The position numbers and the translations under genes are program-made. Shown in pieces: positions 1,765-46,113 of a DNA stretch of 64,000 nucleotides. This DNA is from SAR202 cluster bacterium. Lineage in GTDB: Bacteria > Chloroflexota > Dehalococcoidia > Lucifugimonadales > GCA-2719675. Position 1 is the first letter of the stretch. Every line of letters begins with the position of its first letter. The DNA lies in assembly GCA_009392295.1 (NCBI GenBank), contig VFGW01000012.1:1-64000 (forward strand), read 5' to 3'. Under the pieces are notes generated by a model. It was not told the origin of the DNA. It saw only the letters and a program-made list of their open reading frames with translations, and searched no databases.

Positions 1765-1981
1765 ATATAACTATTCTCCTCCAAAAAGCTAATTAATAAA
1801 CAAATATAATATATGTCTCTGAAATAATTTCAAACTTAAAAAATAGGCAGAATTAATAAATATCTCAATTAATTGACTTTTTAATACAAATTATAAATCC
1901 AAATATCAATTCCCCAAAAACTATCCGGAATTTTCGAGTACATTAATATAAGATCCTTTAATATCTTTTAAGACATCAAAT

Positions 1982-2010
1982 TTGACGAATTTTCTTAACA
2001 CAAATAAAAT
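1982..2010 (+). promoter_or_regulatory. promoter for the lactate-permease-like gene
   Basis: TTGACG (1982-1987), a 17-nt spacer and TAAAAT (2005-2010) form a good sigma-70-type promoter. Transcription would start near 2017. That leaves a short leader containing the AGGA ribosome-binding site at 2039-2042. Confidence 0.55.
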
Positions 2011-2049
2011 CATTAATAATTTTATTAGTTATTGATTTAGGAACTCCTT

Positions 2050-3642
2050 TTGGAATATTTTGAACAATTCAGCATAATAGCAAAAATATCTTCAATAATT
2101 CCTATCCTGATTTTAATAATTACTATGACATTATTCAAATGGAGTGGACAACGATCAGGTACTGCAGGATTAATAGCAAGCATCATTATATCCTTTATTT
2201 TTTTTGGCTCTACTGTTGAAATTACGGTATTAAGTTTCTTAAAAGGAATTTCCCTTTCTTTATTTGTGTTATCCATAATTTGGTCTGCAGTCTGGCTATA
2301 TAACTTAACTGAACAAAATGGATCGATAAAAAATATAGCTAGCGTTATAACATCCTTAATTTCAAATCCTTTACATCAAGCTCTAATTATAGGCTGGTGT
2401 TTTAGCGGTTTAATTCAAGGAATAGCTGGTTTTGGTGTACCTATAGCTGTAATAGTTCCTTTATTGGTAATTATAGGTATCAACCCTTTTAAAGCATCTG
2501 CAATTGCATTAATTGGACATTCATGGGCTGTAGCTTTTGGGTCACTTGGATCGTCATATTACACACTCCAATTAATGACAAATATTAATACTGAAATTCT
2601 AGCACCTCATTTAGCTATTCTTTTTTTCTTGCCAATTTTCCTAAGTGGTCTATCGGTATCTCACATTCATTCGGGATGGAAAGGAATTATTAATAGTCTT
2701 CCATTAGTTCTCTCAATAAGTATCATTATGGCTTTATCTCAATACTTTGCAGCAAAATTGAATTCCCCACAAATTGCTTCTACTATAGCTGGTTTATTGG
2801 GATGTATATTTGCCTGGATAATAATTAATCGAACAAAATTTTTAAAAAAATATTCAACCAGAACAAAACAAACAAAAATAAATCCTGACACTCAAATTAA
2901 AACGTCTATACATATGAGTCTTTTACCATATTATCTGTTAATATTTTTTAGCTTATCATCTCAAATTCCAATTATTAAAGAAATCGGTGGAAATCTATTT
3001 TTTGCAATAGATATTCCTTCAACAGTTACTAATCTTGGATTTGCAACAAATGCGATACAAAACTTTGCAAAAATTAAATTATTATCTCACCCTGCACCAA
3101 TAATTCTTGTTTCATTATTCTTGTTTTGGATAGCAAATTTGCGATATAGAAATTCAAATTTCCAAGATCTAAAAAAAACATTTTTTAAAACTTACTATCA
3201 ATGTGTCCCCACAACATTAACAACTGTTTCAATAGTTGTGATGGCTATGATAATGACTACAACCGGAATGACAACATTAATTAGTATGATTATTGCAAAC
3301 AACACTGGCAACGCCTTCCCTGTTTTTTCTCCATTTATAGGAGCTTTAGGAACTTTTATATCAGGTAGTAACACTAGTTCAAACATCATGTTTGGAGCAT
3401 TACAACTTGAAACTGCCACAAAATTAGGGATAGGAATAGTTACAATATCAAGTATTCAAACTATTGGAGGTTCAATAGCTTCATCAATTGCACCAGCAAA
3501 AATATTAGTAGGAACAGCAATCGTAGGAATAAATGGTAAAGAAGGGGAAGTATTTAAAAAAACTATACCTTATTGCATCCTCATATTATTAATGATTGGT
3601 TTAGAAGCATGGATTTTTTCATACTTGTTAAAAGGAATATAA
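2050..3642 (+). CDS. L-lactate permease (LctP) family transporter
   Basis: A 530-residue inner-membrane protein with about 13-14 hydrophobic segments. It matches the LctP/GlcA family, which imports lactate, glycolate or related 2-hydroxyacids with protons. Supporting signatures are the Q-G-I-A-G-F-G-V-P-I segment (near 125), the G-H-S-W-A-V-A-F-G-S-L-G-S segment (near 157) and the C-terminal G-S-N-T-S-S-N-I-M-F-G-A-L-Q (near 444). The start is TTG: AGGA lies 7 nt before it and no better ATG lies nearby. Another gene in this window (31672-34575) encodes a 2-hydroxyacid dehydrogenase, so a 2-hydroxyacid substrate makes sense, but it is inferred. Confidence 0.88.
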   Translation: MEYFEQFSIIAKISSIIPILILIITMTLFKWSGQRSGTAGLIASIIISFIFFGSTVEITVLSFLKGISLSLFVLSIIWSAVWLYNLTEQNGSIKNIASVITSLISNPLHQALIIGWCFSGLIQGIAGFGVPIAVIVPLLVIIGINPFKASAIALIGHSWAVAFGSLGSSYYTLQLMTNINTEILAPHLAILFFLPIFLSGLSVSHIHSGWKGIINSLPLVLSISIIMALSQYFAAKLNSPQIASTIAGLLGCIFAWIIINRTKFLKKYSTRTKQTKINPDTQIKTSIHMSLLPYYLLIFFSLSSQIPIIKEIGGNLFFAIDIPSTVTNLGFATNAIQNFAKIKLLSHPAPIILVSLFLFWIANLRYRNSNFQDLKKTFFKTYYQCVPTTLTTVSIVVMAMIMTTTGMTTLISMIIANNTGNAFPVFSPFIGALGTFISGSNTSSNIMFGALQLETATKLGIGIVTISSIQTIGGSIASSIAPAKILVGTAIVGINGKEGEVFKKTIPYCILILLMIGLEAWIFSYLLKGI

Positions 3643-6840: not shown

Positions 6841-8709
6841 ATGAGTATTGTGGGTACAGCAGGTCATGTAGATCATGGCAAATCAACTCTTGTAGAAAAA
6901 CTAACTGGCATTAATCCTGACAGGCTACTTGAAGAGAAAAAAAGAGGATTAACTATAGACATTGGTTTTTCATGGATGAAAGATCAAGATAACAATGAAA
7001 TTAGTTTTATAGACGTTCCAGGCCATGAAAAATTTATTTCTAATATGTTAACTGGAATCAGTGGAATAGATTTAGTTTTAATGGTAATTGCAGCTGATGA
7101 ATCCATCATGCCTCAAACTATAGAACATCTACAAATAATCAATTTATTGTCAATTAATAATGGAATCATTGCAATCACAAAAACTGACCTAATTGAAAAA
7201 GAATTCCTAAGCCTAATAAAGGATGAAATATCTGATTTGATACTAGGAACATCTATAGAAAATGCCCCTATAATTGAAACTTCCTCAAATACAGGCATTG
7301 GTATACAAGAGCTAAAAAAAGAAATTTTTTCTAAAATTAAAACCATCCCGTCAAAAACAAATATTATGAAACCAAGATTACCAGTTGACAGATCATTTTC
7401 ACTACCAGGATTTGGAACCATAGCTACTGGCACTCTATTAGACGGAACACTCTCAGTTGGACAAGAAATAATTGTTCTGCCAGAAAAATATAAAGGGAAA
7501 ATCAGATCAATCCAAACTCATCAAAATTCTATTGACTCTGCTAAACCAGGCAATAGAATTGGAATAAATCTATCAGGAATTTCACATCAACAAATTAAAC
7601 GAGGACAAACCATTGTTCTACCTAATCAACAACAAACTTCTTCTGCAGCTGATGTAAAATTAATCTCCCTTAATGAAAATATAAAACATAATTGTGTTGT
7701 AAACCTACATTTTGCGACAAATCAAACTTTATGCAAAGTAAGACTGCTAGATAGGAATGTTTTAACTAATCAATCATCCTGTTTTGCCCAAATTAAACTA
7801 AATGATCCTTTTAGTTTCCAAAAAAATGATGCTTTCATAATCAGATTAGGAAATAAAACTATTGGAGGAGGGATTATAATCGACCCACAGCCTCCTCGTC
7901 ACAAAAGAAATTCAAAACAAATCCTAGAAAGATTGAAAAATTTATCAAGTGACTCTAATGAAAAAGTAATACTAGAAATCATTGGAAAATCAATTTGCAT
8001 CAACACAAAATCCATATCTAAAATTTGCAATATTTCTCTTGAAAAAACTAGCGAATCTTTAGAAAAATTACTGAAATCAAACAAAATTTCACAACTTAAA
8101 AATAATCAATTAGATAAAAAAAATTATTTCATACAAGTTGAAAAAGAAAAAATTTTAAAAAAGAAAATTAAACAATCTTTAAATCACTACCATTTAGAAT
8201 TCCCTATGAAAAAAGGTGCCTCTAAATCATATATCTCGTCCAAAATAAAAATTAGCCCCGAAATATTCGAATTATTGCTAAACAGCCTCATAGAATCAGA
8301 AGAATTAATTCAAACGCATTCAACAATTCAATTGAAATCTCATTCCCCAAAACTATCAGATAAACAGAAAATTGAAGCAAAAAAATATATCAAAGCCTTA
8401 AAATCAAATTATTACTCTCCACCAACAGATTTTCAAATTGAAAAAGATATTTTAAATTTCCTGATTGATCAAAACAAAGTAGTACAAATTTCAGAAAACA
8501 TAATTTATTCAATTGACATATATAAAGAAATGCTTTCAAAAATTAACAAAACGCTAATTACAAAAAATATTTTCAAAGTAGATGACTTCAAAAGCTTATT
8601 CAAGACAACAAGAAAATATACCATCCCATTTTTAGAACATTTAGACGAATCATTAATCACTAAAAGGTTCGAAGATGGCAGAATAAAATATGATTCTCAA
8701 ATGCAATAA
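6841..8709 (+). CDS. selB: selenocysteine-specific elongation factor SelB
   Basis: A 622-residue translational GTPase that carries Sec-tRNA to UGA codons marked by a SECIS hairpin. It has a P-loop G-H-V-D-H-G-K-S-T (8-16), G3 D-V-P-G-H-E-K-F (58-65) and T-K-T-D (113-116). SelB-type beta-barrel domains follow, including R-F-S-L-P-G-F-G-T-like sequence near 183-193. The C-terminal third (about 355-622) is lysine-rich and corresponds to the winged-helix SECIS-binding array. The length is normal (E. coli 614). No selA, selD or tRNA-Sec is in the window. A UGA-containing reading frame that would need SelB lies at 45898-46113. Confidence 0.95.
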   Translation: MSIVGTAGHVDHGKSTLVEKLTGINPDRLLEEKKRGLTIDIGFSWMKDQDNNEISFIDVPGHEKFISNMLTGISGIDLVLMVIAADESIMPQTIEHLQIINLLSINNGIIAITKTDLIEKEFLSLIKDEISDLILGTSIENAPIIETSSNTGIGIQELKKEIFSKIKTIPSKTNIMKPRLPVDRSFSLPGFGTIATGTLLDGTLSVGQEIIVLPEKYKGKIRSIQTHQNSIDSAKPGNRIGINLSGISHQQIKRGQTIVLPNQQQTSSAADVKLISLNENIKHNCVVNLHFATNQTLCKVRLLDRNVLTNQSSCFAQIKLNDPFSFQKNDAFIIRLGNKTIGGGIIIDPQPPRHKRNSKQILERLKNLSSDSNEKVILEIIGKSICINTKSISKICNISLEKTSESLEKLLKSNKISQLKNNQLDKKNYFIQVEKEKILKKKIKQSLNHYHLEFPMKKGASKSYISSKIKISPEIFELLLNSLIESEELIQTHSTIQLKSHSPKLSDKQKIEAKKYIKALKSNYYSPPTDFQIEKDILNFLIDQNKVVQISENIIYSIDIYKEMLSKINKTLITKNIFKVDDFKSLFKTTRKYTIPFLEHLDESLITKRFEDGRIKYDSQMQ

Positions 8710-45876: not shown

Positions 45877-45895
45877 ATGAAGCTCACGGCTTCAT
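45877..45895 (-). promoter_or_regulatory. candidate SECIS hairpin (and/or terminator) of the Uxx-star gene
   Basis: On the minus strand, ATGAAGC and GCTTCAT form a 7-bp stem around a CGTGA loop. The stem starts 11 nt after the in-frame UGA at 45907-45909, and the G in the loop is about 20 nt from it. That lies within the 16-37 nt window of bacterial SECIS elements. A T-rich stretch (TTTTAGTTTATTT on the minus strand) follows, so the same hairpin may also end the transcript. The plus-strand side has no T run. Confidence 0.5.
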
Positions 45896-45897
45896 AA

Positions 45898-46113
45898 TCA
45901 AAAAGTTCACCCAACTCCTTTAAAGCCAACAATTACATTCTCTCCATCAACTACCACAGGAGTTATTCGTTCCCCTCCTGTTAAATCTTCTACTTTAGAC
46001 CAAGCTTCATTGTTTAATTTTAGATCAACTTCCTTATAATCAATTCCATCTCTATCTAATTCTTCTTTCAATGCTGCTGAATAATCACAGTCCGGATGCG
46101 TATATACAATCAT
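45898..46113 (-). CDS. Uxx-star family glutaredoxin-like selenoprotein
   Basis: Read with UGA as selenocysteine this is a 71-residue protein. Without it the frame ends at 45907 after G-V-G. The first 68 residues are a glutaredoxin-like fold with Cys in H-P-D-C-D-Y-S (7-13) and the cis-Pro in I-T-P-V-V-V. Continuing through the UGA at 45907-45909 gives Sec-Thr-Phe and then UGA stop (45898-45900). This is the U-x-x-stop ending of the Uxx-star glutaredoxin-like (seleno)protein family. A hairpin at SECIS distance follows and SelB is encoded at 6841. AGGA lies 7 nt before the ATG. Cys-10 and Sec-69 could form a redox pair. Its partner is unknown. Confidence 0.72.

Follow-up and report, generated by a model that had tools for sequence, protein, structure and literature searches.

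A predicted UXX-star family 2 selenoprotein of a marine SAR202 cluster bacterium with one in-frame UGA for selenocysteine and a second as stop codon

The window, by which we mean the whole 64-kb stretch of DNA that was analysed, carries on its minus strand an ATG at 46113 that opens a reading frame (46113-45907) encoding MIVYTHPDCDYS...GFKGVG up to a first UGA. From this UGA onward, the codons are TGA ACT TTT TGA TTA TGA, so that the frame continues as Sec-Thr-Phe to a second UGA 9 nt further on; with TGA read as U throughout, it stays open to 74 codons. This continuation had been proposed in a sequence-only reading, the coordinates of which were exact, including those of the UGAs at 45909-45907 and 45900-45898. 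UGA is the stop codon at the end of 8 of the 51 genes in the window. The following features were identified:

6841..8709, plus strand: selB, encoding the Sec-specific elongation factor (TIGR00475, 337 bits; PF09106)
45877..45895, minus strand: SECIS-type hairpin that begins 11 nt downstream of the Sec UGA, with a 7-bp stem and the loop CGUGA (folding and comparison)
45892..45894, minus strand: third in-frame UGA, in the 5' arm of the hairpin and past the stop; no coding role is expected
45898..45900, minus strand: second UGA, predicted to be the true stop (most relatives use UAG or UAA)
45901..46113, stop excluded, minus strand: predicted coding sequence of a UXX-star family 2 selenoprotein, 71 aa with Sec69 (frame and family match)
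45907..45909, minus strand: first UGA, predicted to encode Sec69 (Cys, TGC or TGT, in 61 relatives)
46078..46089, minus strand: CxxS active-site motif C9-D-Y-S12, codons 9-12 (C9 is invariant in the alignment)

The protein read through the first UGA matched NCBIfam model NF041211 (UXX-star (seleno)protein family 2) over the entire profile (1-71 of 71) with 121.2 bits, the cut-off being 100, and the subfamily model NF041212 with 98 bits (cut-off 66). The models of UXX-star families 1 and 3 and of the HUGP fusion all remained below their own cut-offs, and the Pfam glutaredoxin model PF00462 gave 39 bits (cut-off 22.9). The Uxx-star glutaredoxin-like identity suggested earlier was thus borne out by both family 2 models. 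A 2026 review on the selenoproteins of prokaryotes (PMC13188914) includes family 2, with the motif GxGU. In the window gene, the ending U-T-F-stop places Sec exactly three codons before the stop, as is typical of this family; the full-length match, the G-x-G-U-x-x-stop end and the alternation of Sec with Cys are shared as well. Nothing essential differs, the stop being UGA rather than UAG or UAA, as in about one fifth of the Sec relatives. Judged by its sequence, the protein is a further member of an already named selenoprotein family, and its double UGA is an ordinary variant. An ordinary annotation had been expected to miss the Sec residue, but a pipeline using the NCBI models should not, since the family is already modelled there.

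Decoding of UGA as Sec requires a dedicated machinery, and its components are present. SelB is encoded inside the window, as had been noted, and the genome (assembled to 1.45 Mb in 25 contigs) was found to encode SelA (526 bits), SelD (344 bits) and a tRNA-Sec with the anticodon UCA, as well as RF2. All three components for which a genome search had been proposed (selA, selD and tRNA-Sec) were therefore recovered. SelD contains an in-frame UGA within the motif CGGUAS (L004 1480-2530, G000 contig C6), and SelD of this SAR202 genome is thus, by its sequence, probably itself a selenoprotein.

We then compared the gene with its relatives. A contig scan of genomes returned 31 loci, almost all from organisms named Chloroflexi, SAR202 or Dehalococcoidia. 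Within the order, 191 of the 250 genomes searched carried family 2, and extending the family 2 search to the whole phylum added almost nothing beyond the order. We read 165 distinct relatives with one profile, and the Sec column held UGA in 104 and Cys (TGC or TGT) in 61, so that the predicted replacement of the UGA by a Cys codon was indeed found. Two of the 104 Sec genes had no stop in the stretch read; in 101 of the 102 readable ones, the stop lay exactly three codons after Sec. These 101 stops comprised 47 UAG, 33 UAA and 21 UGA, and on the tree the stop codon changed 38 times in total, 14 times between UGA and another stop. A conserved position with a frequently switching codon shows the second UGA to be a true terminator and the two-UGA end to be one of several common forms. 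Thus, the earlier assignment of the first UGA to Sec and of the second to termination is supported by both the Cys relatives and the conserved stop, whereas the notion that the two-UGA ending is something special was not upheld, since 21 of 102 Sec members have it. Homologues all ending at G-V-G, or a genome lacking selA, selD and tRNA-Sec, had been named as evidence that would speak against the assignment; neither was what we found. Cys relatives often ended one or two codons later. One Sec member (L034 3071-3086) carried an added residue and ended U-A-F-E-stop, with the stop at +4, and a single Dehalococcoidia chromosome (L040 3001-3455) harbored a tandem pair of Cys-form UXX-star genes.

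In a further step, the region downstream of the Sec codon was analysed. The hairpin consists of the stem ATGAAGC (45895-45889), the loop CGTGA (45888-45884) and the stem GCTTCAT (45883-45877). It starts 11 nt from the first UGA and 2 nt from the second, as had been reported from the sequence. Its fold z score was -2.3, and an equally good hairpin occurred in that place in about 1% of shuffles of the single window sequence. In an AT-rich genome, the window hairpin taken alone is thus only modestly unusual; much stronger evidence comes from the comparison of relatives. A stem of 5 bp or more without mismatches, located at SECIS distance, was found in 98 of 103 Sec genes (25% in shuffled sequences) and in 22 of 60 Cys genes, which corresponds to chance level (31% in shuffled sequences). 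This position-limited test split Sec from Cys genes much more clearly than did the folding energy of the 3' region by itself, for which separation was moderate (mean z of -1.4 in Sec and -0.4 in Cys genes). A five-pair stem could be fitted in 46 Sec genes; pairing was kept in 223 of 230 cells, with several standard pairs per position, although pairing and a G at loop position 2 belonged to the fitting rule and those counts are biased towards structure. Loop position 3 was U in 39 of these genes and G in 7. An Rfam search of the hairpin region gave no match. The loop centre lay 23 nt from the Sec UGA whether the second stop was UGA, UAA or UAG, indicating that the first UGA is the one marked by the hairpin, with no compensation when the second stop is also UGA. 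That spacing decides which UGA is read as Sec, as proposed previously, agrees with this constant position, from which we infer it.

The best overall explanation, to which we assign a probability of about 95%, is that the gene encodes a 71-residue UXX-star family 2 selenoprotein in which Sec69 is decoded from the first UGA and the second UGA stops translation. The hairpin 11 nt downstream would hold SelB with Sec-tRNA-Sec in place to decode the first UGA; Thr and Phe would be added next, and the ribosome would terminate at the second UGA, read by RF2. Only 2 nt from this codon, the hairpin would be at the wrong distance to place SelB, and RF2 could act. Distance would thus be the simplest rule separating the Sec UGA from the stop UGA. 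Comparative sequence data argue for a genuine Sec UGA followed by a stop UGA, confirming the initial observation and supporting a real selenoprotein in SAR202-type bacteria. Each of the three stop codons is used at this position in one member or another, and family 2 therefore offers a natural test set for discrimination between a Sec UGA and a stop UGA nine bases apart.

Alternatively, translation might already end at the first UGA, giving a protein of 68 aa (...GVG), and the hairpin might be merely an intrinsic transcription terminator. Indeed, the hairpin together with the following TTTAGTTTAT was terminator-like by score, and the downstream gene is convergent, a setting where a terminator is expected. 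However, the exact-length U/C-x-x-stop end is conserved in Sec relatives, Cys substitutes for the UGA in homologues, the hairpin is not above chance in Cys members and a U-run is missing after the hairpin in many relatives. We thus regard this explanation as very improbable, although the window hairpin could serve as both SECIS and terminator. Still more improbable is the reading of two or all three UGAs as Sec to give a longer product: the UGAs lie near one another in a single frame that can be read to 74 codons, but 80 of the 101 Sec relatives stopping at the second position have UAG or UAA there, and the hairpin begins only 2 nt after the second UGA. A chance occurrence of UGA-x-x-UGA was also considered and rejected.

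An AlphaFold2 model of the protein (pLDDT 97) showed an NrdH/glutaredoxin fold, with a structural similarity to NrdH and Grx of Z about 10; the top Foldseek match was Mycobacterium tuberculosis NrdH (4hs1), with 41% identity over 63 columns. The window protein has the thioredoxin-like fold of NrdH redoxins and glutaredoxin 3 (PDB 4hs1, 4fiw, 4tr1, 3grx), and its N-terminal active-site Cys likewise opens helix 1. In contrast to these proteins, its chain finishes about where their last helix would begin, and it has CxxS with a Sec near the C terminus instead of CxxC. Mammalian thioredoxin reductase is a flavoenzyme that ends in GCUG-stop and has a eukaryotic SECIS in the 3' UTR. Its C terminus resembles that of the window protein in that a Sec next to the end works with a Cys, but its fold is unrelated.

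The presence of Sec or Cys at the C-terminal position went together with the form of the active-site motif. Position 12, the second of the Cys pair, was Ser in 101 of 101 Sec members, leaving out three GGGU-type relatives from outside the order that have Sec together with CPYC. Among the 61 Cys members, it was Cys in 58 and Thr in 2, giving CxxC or CxxT in 60 of 61. The sole Cys member with CxxS (L086; G157 C16) ends Cys-Val-Cys-UGA, and its extra C-terminal Cys may take over. On the tree, four Sec/Cys changes coincided with four Ser/Cys changes, few of them on well-supported branches. With about four evolutionary changes behind it and poor resolution of the tree, a real coupling is suggested but not proven by these sequence data; it was not found in the literature searched (the primary publication by Haft and Tolstoy, 2025, was not included). 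The pattern suggests that the C-terminal Sec partners a single N-terminal Cys. The product would then most likely be a small thiol/selenol redox protein with Cys9 and Sec69 as the working pair, Sec69 forming a transient Se-S bond with Cys9 of the CxxS motif. Tentatively, and at slightly under even odds, the resolving Cys has in effect moved, the C-terminal Sec replacing the second Cys of CxxC (CxxS with U69 versus CxxC with C69). A less likely but real alternative concerns function only and leaves the decoding unchanged: Sec69 might bind a metal or metalloid instead of acting as the redox partner of Cys9. According to the 2026 review (PMC13188914), binding of metals or of unknown substrates is a possible role for the Sec residues of SaoB, SaoC and UXX-star proteins, and a Cys9/Sec69 metal site would give the identical Sec/CxxS pattern; on the other hand, Sec accompanies the loss of the second active-site Cys, as expected if it assumes a redox role. 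The coupling of Sec to CxxS provides a testable idea of the role of a C-terminal Sec and is the part worth following.

Finally, the window gene is isolated: a dipeptidase-like gene diverges from it on one side and a Rid-family gene converges on it from the other, and these neighbors provide no functional clue. In eleven SAR202-type loci (L018-L023, L025, L026, L036, L037 and L039; about 1900-3300), the UXX-star gene lies 48-90 nt 3' of a signal-peptidase-like gene, which weakly matches the model of the Ni superoxide dismutase maturation protease, and a divergent Ni superoxide dismutase gene adjoins. In the genome of the window, Ni superoxide dismutase is encoded elsewhere. This adjacency raises a possible link of UXX-star to Ni superoxide dismutase or oxidative stress, and the neighborhoods point weakly to oxidative-stress or thiol redox work. 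In three loci (L024, L027 and L030), the UXX-star gene is followed, 200-290 nt further on, by an open reading frame fragment that matches the ResA-like WAxxUGC selenoprotein family; as this fragment begins past the expected Sec motif, it may represent an adjacent second selenoprotein gene.
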